A DNA stretch of 64,000 nt. Source: Aphrocallistes beatrix. Its lineage: Eukaryota > Porifera > Hexactinellida > Sceptrulophora > Aphrocallistidae. Below are positions 8,497-23,247 of this stretch, in pieces. The notes under the pieces are model-generated. The model was not told the DNA's origin and searched no databases. It saw only the letters and a program-made list of their open reading frames with translations. Position 1 is the first letter of the stretch, and the number at the start of each line of letters is the position of its first letter. Location: the NCBI GenBank assembly GCA_963281255.1, contig OY725492.1, positions 3,463,104-3,527,103 on the forward strand, in the 5' to 3' direction. The translations under genes were made by a program, and so were the position numbers.

Positions 8497-9519
8497 CTAC
8501 TCCACCGGATAAGGCAAAGGCTTGCCTTCTATACCAGCACGCAGATTATCTGCCACATCTTGACAAGCCTGTCTTACTCCTCTCACACCAGCCCATGCGA
8601 TGTGCGGAGTAGCGATCACATTCTCCATTTTCAGCAGATCGTGATCAGAAGGGAGATCTCTGGGCTCAGTGGTATCAAGTCCTGCCCCTCCCAACCTTCC
8701 CTCCTTCAAAGCAGTAACCAACGCGTCTTGATCTATAACGCTGCTCCTGGCTATGTTGATGAGGATACAAGTTGGTTTCAATTGAGCTAACTCCTCCTTC
8801 CCTATCAGAAGGTGGGTTTCCTCGCTAGCTCTCACAGCTAACACTAGGAAATCACAGAGAGGGAGCATATGCTTTAAGAGTGGGAAATACTCTGCACCAA
8901 CCTCTGACTCATCAGCTCTCTTCTTCCTGTTATGGTAGAGTACGGACATATCGAACCCTCTTGCTCTCTTAGCCACTTCAAATCCAACACTCCCCATACC
9001 TACGATGCCTAGCTTACTGCCAGCGATAGGGACCGATAGGAACTTATCAAATATACTAGTGTACGTGCTTCCACCGCTTTTGTTATTGAGTGAGACAGCT
9101 GGTATCAGTTTTCTAGTCACAGCCAGCAAGAGAGTGAGTGCAAAGTCTGCTGTCTCTTTTGAGAAAGAGTGAGGACAGTTTCCTACCAGAATCCCCTTAG
9201 ATTTCGTTAATTTTAGATTAATGTGTTCATAACCAGTTCCAGGTAATGCGACGACTCGAAGGTTAGGCAAAGTCTCTATCAGTTCATCCAGTGAATGTTT
9301 GTCTTGAATATTTCTCATTGACCCACGGGCAATAACAGCGATCACATCAACTGCGTTAGAATCGGTTAATTCGTTCAATTGTATCTCTGTGTATTTATCA
9401 TCAAGAAGCTCCTTCAGTTTAAAATCAATTTTCAGCATGTTCAGTATTAAACGTTTAGATATTTCCTGGGCCATAGTAGTGTTGGATGCTACCCAATGAT
9501 AAGCTACAATATAGTTCAT
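8497..9519 (-). CDS. D-isomer-specific 2-hydroxyacid dehydrogenase (glyoxylate/hydroxypyruvate reductase type)
   Basis: Single exon, 340 residues. The NAD(P)-binding motif GIVGMGSVG lies at about 171-179. The family's catalytic triad is present: Arg258 in NIARSS, Glu285 in TTEPRD and His306 in TPHIAWA. The N-terminal substrate lobe carries the usual ALPGTGYEHI turn. Members reduce glyoxylate, hydroxypyruvate or related 2-oxoacids. The sequence looks closer to the glyoxylate/hydroxypyruvate reductase branch than to 3-phosphoglycerate dehydrogenase, because the long C-terminal regulatory domain is missing. Translation could instead start at Met16 (9474), where homology to the fold begins. The gene converges tail-to-tail with the PPxY membrane protein, leaving about 470 bp between stops. 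Confidence 0.92.
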   Translation of the reverse strand: MNYIVAYHWVASNTTMAQEISKRLILNMLKIDFKLKELLDDKYTEIQLNELTDSNAVDVIAVIARGSMRNIQDKHSLDELIETLPNLRVVALPGTGYEHINLKLTKSKGILVGNCPHSFSKETADFALTLLLAVTRKLIPAVSLNNKSGGSTYTSIFDKFLSVPIAGSKLGIVGMGSVGFEVAKRARGFDMSVLYHNRKKRADESEVGAEYFPLLKHMLPLCDFLVLAVRASEETHLLIGKEELAQLKPTCILINIARSSVIDQDALVTALKEGRLGGAGLDTTEPRDLPSDHDLLKMENVIATPHIAWAGVRGVRQACQDVADNLRAGIEGKPLPYPVE

Positions 9520-16862: not shown

Positions 16863-18207
16863 CAGTCTGTCACATAATTATTAAGAATCTTACCCAATTT
16901 CTATATGACCATAATCTTTTAAAATATCATTGCTCAAGTTGATTCAATGCAATTTCACCTTAATTTGAAGTGTTTATATTGCAAATATGTCATGATATTG
17001 GTATATTCTGTTATTAATTCGTGTGAACGCTAATAATTTCAGAGATGATTCGTGTTTTTACCTATTTTAGACTTTTATAACATTGATTTAATATTTCTAC
17101 ATGAATTAGCACTTATTTTTACCACAAATGGCTCAAAAACTTAAGCGAGAGCAAATAGATTTGTTACTAGAAACTACAGACCTGTCAACAAAGGAAATTG
17201 CTGAAAAATTAGGAGTCAGTGTCTCAACGGTCTATTTAGTGAAATCGAGAAAATCACGCGACGTTGGATTAGGACATGGTAGTGGTGGCGGAAGACCCAG
17301 AAAATTTACCAAGTCAACGATGAGGTGTGTAACCCAACAAATTCGACGCAAACCTTATCTTTCATTACGTACCTTAGCACAAATTGCTCCTGGAAAGCCC
17401 TCATATGAGACGGTTCGACGAAACCTAAAGGAGATGAAATACTCCAAGATCTACCCGACTAATTCACCGATGGTGAGCGAAAAGAATCGTCAGAGTAGAA
17501 TACAATGGGCAAAGAAACATAAGTATCCTAAATCATCATGGTCTAAAACCGTTTTCATTGATGAGATGTCCATCTGGCTCTCTAGGGGTCGGATACAGAT
17601 GTGGACGAAATCAGGAAAAAAACGGGTCGCTCCAACCACTAAGCACGCCCCTAAAATTAATGTTTGGGCTGGTTTTAGCTCTATGGGAACATTTCCCCTT
17701 TGTGTTTTCACTACAAATATGGATAGCCTGAAGTTTATTGAGATTTTGGAAGGTCATTTACTGGAGCAGGCAAAGGTTTTCCATCAAGATGACTTGCGGT
17801 TAGTGATGGATAACGACCCCAAGCACACCTCGAAAATCGTGAGGGCCTTCATCGACAAAAACGTGCCTATGCAACTTCCTTGGCCTTCTCAAAGCCCAGA
17901 TCTAAACCCTATTGAAAATTTATTTGCTTGGGTGAAGAGGGAATTGATTAAAAAAGGGCCTAGAACAATTTCTGAGCTAAAAAGGATGCTCGAAGATACT
18001 TGGTCAGGGATAAGTTCCGAATTCTTACAACCATATTGCCAGTCAATGCCTGAAAGATGTAAAATGGTGATTGCATCCGAAGGTTTTCCTATAAATTATT
18101 GATTAATAGCTATTTATCTTACTAAAAATTAATTTTGAAGTCGATTACTTATACCTTGTGAGTACTGTGATTTATTGAGTAATTCTTAATAATTATGTGA
18201 CAGACTG
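16863..18207 (+). mobile_element. Complete Tc1/mariner transposon with TIRs and TA duplication
   Basis: The element is 1,345 bp. Terminal inverted repeats are identical over 26 bp, beginning CAGTCTGTCACATAATTATT on the left and matching in complement on the right. It is flanked by TA on each side (16861-16862 and 18208-18209). It contains one uninterrupted transposase. Identical ends and an undamaged reading frame indicate a recent insertion. Confidence 0.96.
17128..18102 (+). CDS. Tc1/mariner transposase (DD34E)
   Basis: 324 residues. The N-terminal paired-like region has two helix-turn-helix units (STKEIAEKLGVSVSTVY at about 20-36; a second around 65-100) separated by a GRPRKFT linker typical of the family. 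The catalytic residues are visible: Asp in FIDEMSIW, Asp in VMDNDPKH and Glu in NPIENLF. Exactly 34 residues lie between the last two, giving DD34E. No stop, frameshift or missing catalytic residue is seen. The gene fills the centre of an element with intact ends, so it may be autonomous. It acts by cut-and-paste at TA sites. Confidence 0.96.
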   Translation: MAQKLKREQIDLLLETTDLSTKEIAEKLGVSVSTVYLVKSRKSRDVGLGHGSGGGRPRKFTKSTMRCVTQQIRRKPYLSLRTLAQIAPGKPSYETVRRNLKEMKYSKIYPTNSPMVSEKNRQSRIQWAKKHKYPKSSWSKTVFIDEMSIWLSRGRIQMWTKSGKKRVAPTTKHAPKINVWAGFSSMGTFPLCVFTTNMDSLKFIEILEGHLLEQAKVFHQDDLRLVMDNDPKHTSKIVRAFIDKNVPMQLPWPSQSPDLNPIENLFAWVKRELIKKGPRTISELKRMLEDTWSGISSEFLQPYCQSMPERCKMVIASEGFPINY

Positions 18208-18209
18208 TA

Positions 18210-19070
18210 CATACATATAAATAAAAATAATTCCTAACAAAATTAAACAGAAAAATGAATCGTGTCGAACTAAAACTTCAACCTTTCATCTCCTTTTATA
18301 GGTTTCCTTCTAACAGAGCTTTGGCCCAAATCGCACCAATGACAGGGTAGGCTTGATATCCACAAATTTCCAGGAATCTCATGCTAACCACTGAACAGAA
18401 CTCTTTTGAGAGAGAAATCGTAGACAGCATCCAAAGTGTTACTCCATTGACAAAATGCACCTATCCACAGTGACTAATCAGTTTTCGTGAAATTGGCGCG
18501 TGAATCGAGTGGGCTACCACAAATGTTCATTTTCTTTTGATAGAAATTCGATTCAAACTCGAAGGTGTCAAGTCCCAAAATGTCTAATTGAGTGGTTTTG
18601 GAAGAATAAATTATATCTTTGTGGCTACGATTACTCAAATAGATCGTTTGGAGTTTGTAATGGTCCAATGCAAACGAATAATTATCCACAATTCAGCCAA
18701 TGACTTGGCTTGTTCATTATCACCTTTCATTCCCAGCAGCTGTGCTTAAGCATCCAAACCTATAAATAGAATTAATAAAAGTTTTCAATTGTAAAGTGCT
18801 TTGTTTGGCAGTAAATTAGTTCGCTCATTTGTTTGTTAGCAGTGAAAGATCAAAATAAGTTTTTTTGTGGAAATCCATCCCCTTTAGTAAATACTCCTAA
18901 ATAATAATACTATACAAATCTATTCCTGATAAATGATTTACAAGTTTTAACACCTTCAGAATATTAATACAAAATACATACTCCCATATACATCACAGGT
19001 CACCGTCAATAATAACGAAAATCCAAAATAAGAATCGGAAATCTCAAAACTGTATAACTACACTCTATGT
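18210..19070. other. Intergenic region with one exon-like stretch
   Basis: Apart from the candidate exon at 18296-18460 I see no assignable feature. A second minus-strand open stretch near 18620-18740 is also coding-like (it contains GDNEQAKSLAELW) but has stops and no clear splice sites. Confidence 0.4.
18296..18460 (-). CDS. Candidate terminal exon or gene fragment, unknown
   Basis: An open stretch of 54 codons is preceded by an acceptor-like GGATAG and ends in TAA. It has coding-like composition, including FLEICGYQAYP and IGAIWAKALLEGNL. No initiating Met lies upstream in frame, so it would be a 3' exon or a relic. A second coding-like piece lies 150-280 bp upstream in another frame. I do not recognise a family. 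Decay of a former gene next to the transposon is equally possible. Confidence 0.3.
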   Translation of the reverse strand: MHFVNGVTLWMLSTISLSKEFCSVVSMRFLEICGYQAYPVIGAIWAKALLEGNL

Positions 19071-20160
19071 CATTATGTGGAGAATGGGCATTTTGGGTTA
19101 CTATTTTCAATCCCCCCACTATGAGGGGGTGCTCAGTGGCATTATGTGGAAAATAGGTATTTTGGGTTACTATTTTCAATCCCCCCACTATGAGGGGGTG
19201 CTCAGTGGCATTATGTGGAGAATGGGCATTTTGGGTTACTCTTTTCAATCCTCACTACCAGGAGAGGGTGCTCAGTGGCATTATGTGGAGAATGGGCATT
19301 TTGGGTTACTCTTTTCAATCCCTCCACCATGATGGGGTGTTCGGGGGCATTATGTGGAAAATAGGTATTTTGGGTTACTTTTCTCAATCCCTCCACCAGG
19401 AGAGGGTCCTCAGTGGCATTATGTGGAGAATGGGCATTTTGGAATACTCTTTTCAATCCCCCACCAGGAGAGGGTGCTCAGTGGCATTATGTGGAGAATG
19501 GGCATTTTGGGTTACTCTTTTCAATCCCTCCACCATGATGGGGTGTTCGGGGGCATTATGTGGAAAATAGGCATTTTGGGTTACTTTTCTCAATCTCTCC
19601 ACCAGGAGAGGGTCCTCAGTGGCATTATGTGGAGAATGGGCATTTTGGAATACTCTTTTCAATCCCCCACCAGGAGAGGGTGCTCAGTGGCATTATGTGG
19701 AGAATGGGCATTTTGGGTTACTCTTTTCAATCCCCCCACTATGAGGGGGTGCTCAGTGGCATTATGTGGAGAATGGGCATTTTGGGTTACTCTTTTCAAT
19801 CCTCACTACCAGGAGAGGGTGCTCAGTGGCATTATGTGGAGAATGGGCATTTTGGGTTACTCTTTTCAATCCCTCCACCATGATGGGGTGTTCGGTGGCA
19901 TTATGTGGAAAATAGGCATTTTGGGTTACTTTTCTCAATCCCTCCACCAGGAGAGGGTCCTCAGTGGCATTATGTGGAGAATGGGCATTTTGGAATACTC
20001 TTTTCAATCCCCCACCAGGAGAGGGTGCTCAGTGGCATTATACGGAGAATTGGCATTTTGGGTTGCTATTTTCAATCCCCACCTGGAGGGTGGTGCTCAG
20101 TGGCATTATGTGGAGAATTGGCATTTTGGTCAACTCCTTTCAATCGTCCACCAATTGAGG
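19071..20160. repeat. 69-bp minisatellite, about 16 units
   Basis: Units begin CATTATGTGGA and start at 19071, 19140, 19209, 19279, 19348, 19417, 19485, 19554 and onward. Spacing is 68, 69 or 70 bp. Each unit carries ATGGGCATTTTGGGTTACT and a GC-rich segment that varies between units (CCCCCCACTATGAGGGGG, CCCTCCACCAGGAGAGGG and others), usually able to pair as a short hairpin. Because 69 is 23 codons, long open frames appear in several frames on both strands. I regard these as by-products of the period. There is no start context, splice signal or known fold. Confidence 0.95.
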
Positions 20161-20479
20161 ATTTTATGTATGTAGTATTTTTTGGACGAAATACGTTTTG
20201 TTCTACCCATTTTCAATTTTTTCTCCATAATGGGATACTTTTTTCCATTATGTTTGCAAGCTGTATTTTATTAACCATTATCGACAGATTCTTCCCTTTT
20301 TCATTATGTTTCGAATTTTCCTTTTAGTTACCTTTTTATATTTTTAACTCTATGTTTCCCTTTATTCCTAGAGTCATCGCTGTGCATGTATTCCATTTTT
20401 GTAAAATTTTCTGTGTTTCTTTATTTATCATTTGCATTTGTTCCCACGCTCCGCTCCTTCGATATCGAGTCAGTTTTTT

Positions 20480-21776
20480 ACTTTGGAATACTGAAAATTT
20501 GTTGACCTGCTTGGAATTCGAACCTCCGCCACTTCGTTATCGGCTCAGTGCGCTAACCACTCGACCATGAAGTCCCACTTCTTTAGAATGTCCTAAAGTT
20601 ATATTTATATTTGTTAACTAAAAATTTGTTGACTTGCTTGGGATTCGAACCCGCGTTACTTCGTTATCGGCTCAGTGCGCTAACCACTCGACCATGAAGT
20701 CCCACTTCTTTAGAATGTCCTAAAGTTATATTTATATTTGTTAACTGAAAATTTGTTGACTTGCTTGGGATTCGAACCCGCGTTACTTCGTTATCGGCTC
20801 AGTGCGCTAACCACTCGACCATGAAGTCCCACTTCTTTAGAATGTCCTAAAGTTATATTTATATTTGTTAACTGAAAATTTGTTGACTTGCTTGGGATTC
20901 GAACCCGCGTTACTTCGTTATCGGCTCAGTGCGCTAACCACTCGACCATGAAGTCCCACTTCTTTAGAATGTCCTAAAGTTATATTTATATTTGTTAACT
21001 GAAAATTTGTTGACTTGCTTGGGATTCGAACCCGCGTTACTTCGTTATCGGCTCAGTGCGCTAACCACTCGACCATGAAGTCCCACTTCTTTAGAATGTC
21101 CTAAAGTTATATTTATATTTGTTAACTGAAAATTTGTTGACTTGCTTGGGATTCGAACCAGCGTCACTTCGTTATCGACTCAGTGCGCTAACCATTCGGT
21201 CATGAACTCCTACGTCTTTAAAATGTTCTAAAATTATATTTATGTTTGTTACTATGGAATAGTGAAAATTTGTTGACTTGCTTGGGATTCGAACCCACGT
21301 CACTTTGTTATAGACTCAGTCTGCTAACCACTCGACCATGAAGTCCCACGTCTTTAAAATGTTCTAAACTTATATTTATGTTTGTTACTTTGGAATACTG
21401 AAAAATTGTTGACTTGCTTGGGATTCGAACCCGCGTCACTTTGTTATCGACTCAGTGCGCTAACCATTCGGTCATGAACTCCTACGTCTTTAAAATGTTC
21501 TAAAATTATATTTATGTTTGTTACTATGGAATAGTGAAAATTTGTTGACTTGCTTGGGATTCGAACCCACGTCACTTTGTTATAGACTCAGTCTGCTAAC
21601 CACTCGACCATGAAGTCCCACGTCTTTAAAATAATCTAAAATTATATTTATGTTTGTTAACTGAATATTTGTTGACTTGCTTGGGATTCGAACCTGCGCC
21701 ACTTTGTTATCGACTCAGTGCGCTAACCACTTGGCCATGAAGTCCCATGTCTTTAAAATGTTCTAAAATTATATTC
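20480..21776 (-). repeat. Tandem array of ten tRNA-like units (127 or 136 bp)
   Basis: Taking GACTTGCTTGGGATTCGAAC as landmark, units start at 20504, 20631, 20758, 20885, 21012, 21139, 21275, 21411, 21547 and 21674. Spacing is 127 bp five times, 136 bp three times, then 127. The minus strand of each unit has a polymerase III A box (TGGTCGAGTGG), a B box 40-45 bases later (GGTTCGAATCC) and a TTTT tract about 10 bases beyond. The tRNA acceptor stem is partly kept (GACTT with AAGTC), but the anticodon and T stems are weak, so I assign no amino acid. Four units from 20631 are almost identical, implying recent amplification. Confidence 0.9.
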
Positions 21777-21855
21777 ACAAGCGCGCTTCGCTTGCTTGCG
21801 CTGCGCGGCTTGCGGACACTGTGTGTCCGCAGATTTACCCAGTGGGAGCTTGGGG
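21776..21855 (+). repeat. GC-rich hairpin core of the dispersed repeat, copy 4
   Basis: It directly abuts the end of the tRNA-like array. It starts CACAAGCGCGCTTCGCTTGC and has the TGCGGACAC/GTGTCCGCA stem. The third hairpin is degenerate in this copy. Confidence 0.85.
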
Positions 21856-22379
21856 ATATTAGAGAAACAATACGTCGCTTTCTTACTAAGTACGCTGGAT
21901 TGTCATTTGTCTACGGTTACATTTAATAAATCAGAACTGTAGCAGAAATTTTGTTTCGTGATAAATATAATTTACTTCGTATTAAGCCAACTAATCCTGA
22001 ATGTAAGCTCAATTTGAATACACAAAGTTCACATTGCTAAAGATCATTATACGTACTTAAATAATCAATTCCAGTCCATGTCGTTAAAAGTTATTTTATG
22101 ATCGAATTGATTGATCGTAGCATATAACACACTTTAATTGTTGTCAACAATCAAATTATAGACTCAAAATAGCAGTATTCAATCATTTATATTAAATAGA
22201 ATCGTGTGAATGCCATTATAAAAGGCTGATAATTGATTGGTTCACATAAACCAATGAATTTCAATCACAAATAGTTATTTTGATTGTATGCATAAGTCAA
22301 TACTATTTTATTCCAATGTATTTGCATTATAAAATAATTGAATTTGATTGGTCAGCACATTTTGTTACCTATCTCGGCG
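21856..22379. other. AT-rich stretch, nothing seen
   Basis: I recognise no gene, RNA or bounded element. Confidence 0.5.
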
Positions 22380-22520
22380 AGGTGTGAACATTTCGCTTAG
22401 ATCTTCGAACTTAATCCTAGATTCATCATTTGACACCTACATGCCAATTTTCGTATCTCTACGACTTGCCAATTCTTCAATCAATTCGGACAAACAAAAA
22501 CAAAAAATCCTAGCATTTTA
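22380..22520 (+). repeat. Partial dispersed repeat (module upstream of the hairpin core)
   Basis: The sequence matches 15945-16090 over most of its length, from the GAGGTGTGAA start through CTTCGAACTTAATCCTAGAT to TTCTTCAATCAATTCGGACA. The GC hairpin core is absent; an 11-bp AT satellite follows instead. Confidence 0.85.
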
Positions 22521-22534
22521 ATATATAAGATATA

Positions 22535-22745
22535 ATTATTATATAATTATTATATAATTATTATATAATTATTATATAATTATTATACAATTATTATATA
22601 ATTATTATACAATTATTATATAATTATTATACAATTATTATATAATTATTATATAATTATTGTATAATTATTATACAATTATTATATAATTATTATACAA
22701 TTATTATATAATTATTATATAATTATTGTATAATTATTATATAAT
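22535..22745. repeat. 11-bp AT satellite (ATTATTATATA)n
   Basis: About 19 units of an 11-base motif, with scattered T-to-C changes giving TATACAATTATT variants. It appears to have grown from the TATAATTATT tail of the adjacent dispersed repeat. Confidence 0.9.
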
Positions 22746-23247
22746 AATTATATGTATATATAGTATGTAAGCACTATGGTACAGAGGTGGATAATTAACA
22801 GATGACTTATACAGATCGTAATGATTAGGAAACAATACTAGAATAATTCTGAAATTTAGTGAACATTTGAATGAGTAAGACTTCAAAGTATATGTAAAGA
22901 AAGTTATATTTATGTAGAGTTCAATTCAGTAAAATTGGGGGAGAGGACATTGTGTATCAGTCAAAAATAAGTTGCGGGAAAATTGCACAGTGACTGACCA
23001 GAGAAGATCTTGTAATAACCAGTATATGGTGAGTGGCAGTTACAGAATGTTTACCAGACCCATCCACAAATACAAATTCGCATAACTTGTGTGAAATATG
23101 CAATAGTTATATATGTATAATCTTCCCATAACTTGGAGCACATACAAATACATTACGTTGATGTTCTGGAAAAGCACAAAAATTATATCATTTACATTTA
23201 TCACATTTATTAATTACAGACTAGAACAATAGTGTTCCTTTATAAGA
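22746..23247. other. Intergenic stretch; contains the 3' end signal of the membrane protein gene
   Basis: A minus-strand AATAAA (TTTATT at about 23210-23216) lies some 32 bases beyond the stop of the gene at 23248-23801. I see nothing else. Confidence 0.45.

Follow-up and report, generated by a model that had tools for sequence, protein, structure and literature searches.

A tRNA-like tandem array pointing into satellite DNA: probable head of a dispersed non-coding composite

The window covers 64,000 nucleotides of contig C6 in the 100.5-Mb, 28-contig genome of Aphrocallistes beatrix. It contains a row of short tandem units on the minus strand that resemble tRNA genes, and the question raised by this locus is what such a row represents. 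The first-pass annotation suggested a tandem SINE-like small RNA whose polymerase III (Pol III) promoter seems to have been kept while the tRNA fold has been lost. The row is one of about forty in the genome, nearly all of which are at the edge of a satellite block and point into it. This edge position and inward polarity make it look like the head of a satellite-carrying mobile repeat, and not like a set of tRNA genes. Table 1 gives the coordinates.

TRF calls the array at 20490–21775, with a period of 127, 9.9 copies and 91% matches. With the first base of the tRNA-like part taken as the start of each unit, the lengths in minus-strand order are 127, 136, 136, 136 and five times 127 bp, followed by a partial tenth unit. 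TRF and unit cutting thus confirm the row of ten minus-strand units of 127/136 bp that had been claimed. Each unit consists of a 72-nt tRNA-like part and an AT-rich spacer of 55–64 nt. Units 6 to 8 do not differ from one another and unit 9 matches them at 99%; these are the four nearly identical units noticed at first, and a partial recent homogenisation is borne out. Units 2 and 4 are also identical, and the intervening unit 3 is 90% like them. The 136-bp sub-types therefore alternate as had been proposed, but the two-unit higher-order pattern spans only about two periods. With its head-to-tail units, local homogenisation and higher-order pattern, the array has the properties of a satellite.

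The A-box pattern, GGTCGAGTGG then GGTTCGANT, is exact in seven of the ten units (units 1, 3 and 5 deviate in the A box). The B box GGTTCGAATCCCAAGCAAGTCA is exact in nine, and TTTT is found behind the tRNA-like part in nine, unit 1 having ATATTC there. The statement that each unit keeps A box, B box and TTTT was thus slightly too strong, though it holds for most of them. The two box patterns have no match in 100 shuffles of the window.

Table 1. Features of the window locus and large satellite blocks on contig C1
Feature	Position	Strand	Remarks
Helitron-like non-autonomous element, 753 bp	21778..22530	(-)	directly 5′ of the array; 5′ end TCTTATATATTAAAATGCTAGGA at 22530-22508; 3′ hairpin end ...GCGCGCTTG at 21778; flanks A and T
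Incomplete spacer 5′ of unit 1, truncated by the Helitron-like element	21745..21777	(-)	other loci there: AACA/TAAATATAAT
Ten tRNA-like units, tenth partial	20477..21744	(-)	TRF and unit cutting
Unit 1	21744-21618	(-)	
Unit 9	20701-20575	(-)	
Partial unit 10	20574-20477	(-)	
A-rich single-copy spacer, array to satellite	20162..20476	(-)	97-98% with L009/L011/L013
69-bp satellite, ~16 copies, 206-bp higher-order period	19071..20161	(-)	
Right module	18208..19070	(-)	L011 99.5% over 800 bp; L026 97%
Satellite block, ~59 kb	C1 6.522-6.581 Mb		begins at L010
Satellite block, ~45 kb	C1 7.599-7.644 Mb		L015 to inverted unit L048
Satellite block, ~78 kb	C1 7.821-7.899 Mb		starts at L016 end

The 72-base part fits the tRNA numbering without gaps, with all four arms (acceptor, D, anticodon and T) in register, and it retains the T loop TTCGAAT and the D-loop GG. 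Cloverleaf pairs were counted in the 153 gapless units of the family. The mean is 12.4 of 21 pairs, versus 5.9–8.6 when the partners are slid by 1–3 bases. Acceptor pairs 1–5 are present in 84–99% of these units; eight of the 21 pairs are formed in 22% or fewer, and six of these in about 12% or fewer. Since most copies share the same mismatches, the loss of the fold preceded the spread of the family. Folding energies average −19.1 kcal/mol over 60 distinct units, versus −26.0 over 26 tRNA-model hits of the same genome. The parent tRNA is ambiguous: in comparison with 31 tRNA-model hits, Ser-GCT is best by identity and His or Trp by score, at 64–78%. The A and B boxes of tRNA-Ser (GCT) are those of the units, and the overall scores favour different tRNAs for each unit type.

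ARAGORN (bacterial code) finds no tRNA in the window or in loci L045–L048. Covariance scoring, which the first-pass annotation had proposed, was carried out with RF00005 and shows no match at E-values up to 10 within 20000–22500. No Rfam tRNA is above its cut-off in the window or in 20 other loci, and in a lax RF00005 search of seven loci the best score is 23.6 bits (a unit of L048), below the cut-off of 29. These results and the pair counts agree with the claimed decay of the cloverleaf, and support a tRNA-derived sequence rather than ordinary tRNA genes. Ordinary tRNA genes, or clustered tRNA pseudogenes, would explain the exact tRNA register, the intact T loop and the acceptor pairs, yet with the negative ARAGORN and Rfam results and eight rarely formed pairs this explanation is almost certainly wrong. 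Working tRNA genes are refuted by the same searches and pair counts. A hammerhead or other known RNA is not indicated either, as no Rfam family is above its own cut-off in the window or the 20 loci; the sub-cut-off matches (e.g. Plastid-ycf2 and a 15-nt match to the tmRNA T arm) look like chance.

A 161-base search of the genome gives at least 162 matches. A 26-base pattern with up to 3 mismatches gives 163, and its reversed control gives none. At the 41 places examined there are 49 arrays with 214 units, found on nine of the 28 contigs. Contigs C1, C3 and C13 have 27 of 40 loci (L048 is the far end of the L015 block). The number of units per array is 1 to 14 and the unit length across the family is 127–142 bp. 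The C6 subfamily, L045–L047, begins GACGTCA. The tRNA-derived head of a SINE is present, in the form of the 72-nt register. However, among the matches listed (100 of the 163 pattern matches) there are no dispersed monomers outside clusters, where a SINE would have many with target duplications. The genome-wide monomer search therefore leaves the label "SINE-like" doubtful.

The main feature of the locus was overlooked in the first reading, namely a satellite that is coupled to the 3′ side of the array (20161–19071). Tandem repeats in the flanks were scored by TRF (period of 25 or more, score of 120 or more, within 1.5 kb). Such a repeat is on the 3′ side of 44 of the 49 arrays and on the 5′ side of three. 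In three of the 44 (L012, L031 and L040) the best 3′ repeat is a neighbouring tRNA-like array; the three 5′-side repeats are a neighbouring tRNA-like array, a 141-bp double copy and a 35-bp repeat. Five arrays are without a TRF repeat on the 3′ side. Of these, a profile search detects the 31-bp satellite at L017 and a trace at L027, and L012 (two arrays) and L021 have no satellite within 1.5 kb on that side. The arrays are related by descent, thus 44 of 49 does not represent 44 independent events.

The order on the 3′ side is almost constant: array, an A-rich spacer of about 300 bp (sense strand A 44%, T 21%), and satellite. At least two mutually unrelated kinds of satellite occur, i.e. units of 40 to 101 bp around CCAAAATGCC, and a 31-bp unit ACCGGTTTGGCTGG... 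The periods range overall from 31 to 101 bp, and the 69-bp satellite of the window belongs to the CCAAAATGCC kind. A repeat of about 35 bp around CCGAATATTATCAGTATTTGTATTCGGTTAGAGTA is found beside two arrays (L042 3037–3415 and the left flank of L037).

The coupling is also seen when the search starts from the satellites. With the 64/73-bp satellite all four candidates were scored and three of three loci are beside arrays; the 40-bp satellite has two candidates, with two of two loci beside arrays, and the 31-bp satellite has 11 candidates, with eight of nine listed loci beside arrays. The three types together have 14 loci, 13 of them beside tRNA-like arrays. The ninth 31-bp locus (C9) is a weak match that proves to be a 27-bp repeat with no tRNA-like units in 4 kb. 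For the 69- and 66-bp satellites the best 37 of 49 and 38 of 44 candidates were scored, and the matches listed (about 150 of about 360) adjoin arrays or fall in large blocks.

Three blocks of about 45–78 kb lie within 1.4 Mb of contig C1, and these are possibly a centromere region. In each of six 1-kb samples from their interior the sequence is satellite in a single orientation, and the block ends were read as well. Blocks at L015/L048, L033, L038 and L040 have arrays at both ends that point inwards; most satellite blocks have an array on a single side. For the four blocks with arrays at both ends, a foldback element bounded by long inverted ends was weighed as an explanation, and it was dropped because most arrays flank one side only.

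The best explanation, with a probability of about 0.65, is that the array forms the 5′ head of a composite repeat that is non-coding and dispersed, has the structure (tRNA-like)n, A-rich spacer, satellite, and has spread in part with Helitron-like elements. The constant polarity, the common spacer and junctions and the variable number of units are observed features. A tRNA-derived sequence would have lost its cloverleaf before multiplying, would then have become a tandem repeat of 127–142 bp units, and now stands in a single fixed orientation before a satellite with a period of 31 to 101 bp. Units were presumably added and homogenised in place by unequal exchange or slippage, and whole composites may have reached new sites through the copying machinery of other elements. 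In the case of the window and L009, this machinery would most likely be that of the Helitron-like element immediately 5′ of the array, which would have read through its 3′ end. That the composite codes for a protein was also considered and rejected: the long frames in the flanks appear by eye to be satellite translations or neighbouring genes.

Helitrons insert between A and T, and their usual 3′ end is CTRR just before the T. The Helitron-like element at 21778–22530 has a 5′ TC end, a GC-rich hairpin at its 3′ end and an insertion site between A and T; the CTRR position reads CTTG. In the DNA examined, A precedes 10 of 12 such 5′ ends and T follows 21 of 21 such 3′ ends. The two exceptional 5′ ends are preceded by G, each after another such end, and two of the 12 begin GC. 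The genome has 906 such 5′ ends when up to one mismatch is allowed, and the reversed control gives 0. An 11-bp AT microsatellite of 20 copies adjoins the 5′ end of the element (window 22530–22753).

The window, L009, L011 and L013 are 97–98% alike left of the array, as they are in the A-rich spacer. L009 and the window have the junction and the exact 5′ end in common, and the DNA before it differs; L011 and L013 have the same junction and are shorter on the 5′ side. As the L009 copy has exactly the same 5′ end and different upstream DNA, spread as cargo is indicated, and a Helitron reading through its 3′ end most likely took the array along in the window and L009. On the right the similarity between the window and L011 ends at about position 18208, and a Helitron-type hairpin is absent at this common right end. 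A segmental duplication may be behind the similarity of these two loci. In the family as a whole, a sense-strand Helitron 3′ end is found within 1.5 kb on the 5′ side of 15 of the 49 arrays, at a distance of 0 bp in five, 54–61 bp in four, 161–163 bp in three and more than that in the remaining three. On the 5′ side of eight arrays there is an antisense Helitron 3′ end; the 3′ side has two in sense and two in antisense.

L028 suggests a second route of spreading. It is cut off inside unit 1 and has an 11-bp direct repeat at its flanks, a length reached by none of 552 mismatched pairs. The direct-repeat test took in 24 of 36 arrays, and the other 23 of these 24 testable loci have no direct repeat of more than 6 bp at their crude borders. 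A common outer end of the composite was looked for and not found, and the left borders vary.

These borders bear on the possibility of an SVA-like retroposon. SVA elements are composite and non-coding, as is the repeat described here, and both contain an internal tandem repeat of variable copy number; SVA differs in its single VNTR, its Alu-like part and its poly(A) tail. An SVA-like large retroposon would be transcribed by Pol III or Pol II and copied by LINE machinery; its sense strand would be rich in A, and it would have two tandem arrays in its interior. The base composition of the spacer, the variable 5′ borders and the truncated L028 with its direct repeat are in keeping with such an element; however the lack of direct repeats at the other 23 testable loci, with neither a poly(A) nor a common 3′ end seen, makes it rather unlikely.

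If the first reading were correct, the Pol III boxes should be better conserved than the remainder of the unit. This was analyzed on a tree of 143 of the 214 aligned units, those that cover 105 of 133 columns. Parsimony gives 4.2 changes per site in the A box and 3.0 in the B box, with 4.6 in the rest of the tRNA-like part and 4.4 in the spacer. When tRNA-like sites are drawn at random, the set is as slow as the A box in 50% of draws and as slow as the B box in 11% (P = 0.11), and a rate as low as that of the B box is reached by 14 of 123 contiguous stretches of the unit. Selection on the A and B boxes was thus looked for on this tree and not found; boxes, fold and spacer evolve equally, and the whole unit, including the spacer, has changed little. 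There may be a weak constraint on the B box. The claim of a promoter kept while the fold was lost is therefore not upheld. The first-pass annotation had named B-box substitutions at a neutral rate in most genomic copies as evidence against itself, and the data come near to this, since the box rates are about those of other sites and the B box is perfect in 114 of 174 units.

The count of boxes and terminators includes the 174 units with a complete 5′ end. The A-box consensus is found in 154 of them, and within this box it is the free Y of the consensus that varies most. A T run of T5–6 is within 20 nt at 28 of the 31 tRNA-model hits of this genome. Terminators of the units are T5 or longer in 31 and T4 in 88, and 55 have less, without T4 within 25 nt. 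Arrays have 54 T5 runs versus 20 in shuffled arrays, and a TATA-like stretch ATAAATATAATTTTAG is about 30 nt upstream in nearly all loci. Compared with tRNA genes, the units have the A and B boxes, and lack the complete cloverleaf and, as a rule, the T5+ terminator.

A live Pol III locus, where each unit gives an RNA of 80–100 nt from its A and B boxes that ends at TTTT, as a tandem SINE-like small RNA, could account for the frequency of the boxes, the variability of the A box at its free Y, the slower B box (not significantly so), the excess of T5 runs and the TATA-like stretch. It is quite unlikely nonetheless, in view of boxes with no extra conservation, the 55 of 174 units without even a T4, the lack of dispersed monomers among the matches listed, and the RF00005 scores below cut-off in the seven-locus search. 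The Pol III boxes of today are most likely inherited passengers of the composite, and some units may still be transcribed or bound by TFIIIC.

Among the tRNA-model hits, L051–L081, the longest T run within 20 nt of the 3′ end is exactly five in 26 of 31, mostly as CTTTTTG or CTTTTTA. Two of them, L076 and L079 (C8:4384782–4385831), are about 1 kb apart and have no T run; their 3′ flanks are alike (CGATCGGTGCAATCC, CGATCGATGCAATCC) and unlike those of other tRNAs.

The sense strand downstream of the arrays displays an asymmetry of homopolymer runs. Satellites (38.5 kb) have two T5+ runs and 75 A5+ runs, where shuffles give 20 T5+. Spacers (10.0 kb) have two T5+ and 132 A5+, and as shuffles give 2.7 T5+ there is no deficit; the block samples (6 kb) have no T5+ and 43 A5+. 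A purge of T4 from the sense strand is not found, with 32 in spacers versus 19.5 shuffled and 128 in satellites versus 114. The T4 and T5 counts left out seven and ten of the 49 arrays, which are single, far-side or neighbouring. The scarcity of T5 is compatible with Pol III read-through and also with plain base composition.

The arrays might function as control elements of the satellite, where TFIIIC or Pol III on the B boxes would bar the spread of satellite heterochromatin, like tRNA genes at the centromeres of fission yeast, or start long sense satellite transcripts. Arrays that point inwards would then fence the satellite, or drive sense RNA on a nearly T5-free strand, with unrelated satellites under the same head. 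In favor of this are the polarity, which is the same in 44 of 49 arrays, the four blocks with arrays at both ends, and the sense-strand shortage of T5, which is the usual tRNA terminator here; tRNA genes are known to work as boundaries in fission yeast (excerpted text of PMC4131230). However the polarity is also explained by descent of one composite, and the majority of blocks have a single flanking array. T4 is not depleted beyond composition, nor is T5 in spacers, and the T5 deficit in satellites amounts to few independent cases because satellite units are copies of each other. In addition, the T5 excess inside the arrays would end transcripts early, and the boxes are no more conserved than the rest of the unit. 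A control function is thus possible but improbable. If the arrays bind TFIIIC, they would be a natural test of whether satellite DNA is under the control of tRNA-type boundaries or promoters. If they do not, they are a record of how a Helitron-like element and local exchange turned a small-RNA gene into a satellite.

Satellites of tRNA-like sequence have precedents in the squamate SINE-derived satellites (sSats) and in newt, Xenopus and frog repeats (Vassetzky 2023, PMC10702118, in the part of the article available). The sSats are tandem arrays from the tRNA-related head of a retroposon, and are like the arrays described here in their tRNA-related tandem units, short dispersed loci and alternating dimer patterns. 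They differ in that an intact dispersed parent SINE is present for each family, whereas here no parent SINE in the same genome is found among the matches listed; a fixed second satellite on one side is not described for them in that part of the article (PMC10702118). The amphibian repeats, i.e. newt PolIII/TAN, which is transcribable in vitro, Xenopus OAX/satellite I and Rana/polIII, are likewise tRNA-like tandem units without a known parent SINE. The newt and Rana repeats have longer units of about 250–360 nt, and coupling to another satellite is not mentioned for the amphibian repeats in the same excerpt (PMC10702118).

Two mobile elements are also comparable. Helitron-2 of Drosophila virilis carries 154-bp tandem repeats (PMC3833285, as excerpted), and these resemble the window array in that tandem repeats are tied to a Helitron and dispersed with it. 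Unlike the array, which adjoins the 3′ end of the element, they are inside the Helitron, and most arrays of this family have no Helitron end nearby (sense 3′ end at 15 of 49). Helenus elements (Kojima 2024, PMC10886601, as excerpted) are LTR miniature elements with a tRNA-like Pol III promoter, and resemble the composite in being non-autonomous and carrying a promoter that is tRNA-derived. They differ in having two LTRs, a PBS, a PPT and target duplications of 4–5 bp. Ends of the Helenus/TRIMp3 type were not seen by eye, and the sole direct repeat over 6 bp is that of L028. A fixed one-way coupling of a tRNA-like array to at least two unrelated satellites was not found described in the portions of the literature available. 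This coupling, checked in both directions in one genome, is the new part of the present findings.

The neighbourhood of the array is eukaryotic in its gene content; the window carries genes for Ndc80, an L27-PDZ-guanylate kinase protein and a Tc1-type transposase, and phage records show no match. An uninterrupted frame of 330 aa at 17110–18102, beyond the right module, has Tc3-type HTH and DDE_3 domains of a Tc1/mariner transposase. Positions 8497–51571 of the window have many long uninterrupted gene frames (e.g. 488, 655 and 1329 aa), thus introns seem scarce in the window.

A dispersed sequence of about 95 bp, with TATAAATAG inside GGGGTCC...GGACCCC, is found at L049, L050 and in the left flanks of several arrays (L010, L024, L025, L029, L031, L035 and L041). 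All 40 that were scored match, of 619 first-look candidates. The sequence is thus upstream of several arrays and also present elsewhere, and its L050 copy appears by eye to be beside coding sequence.
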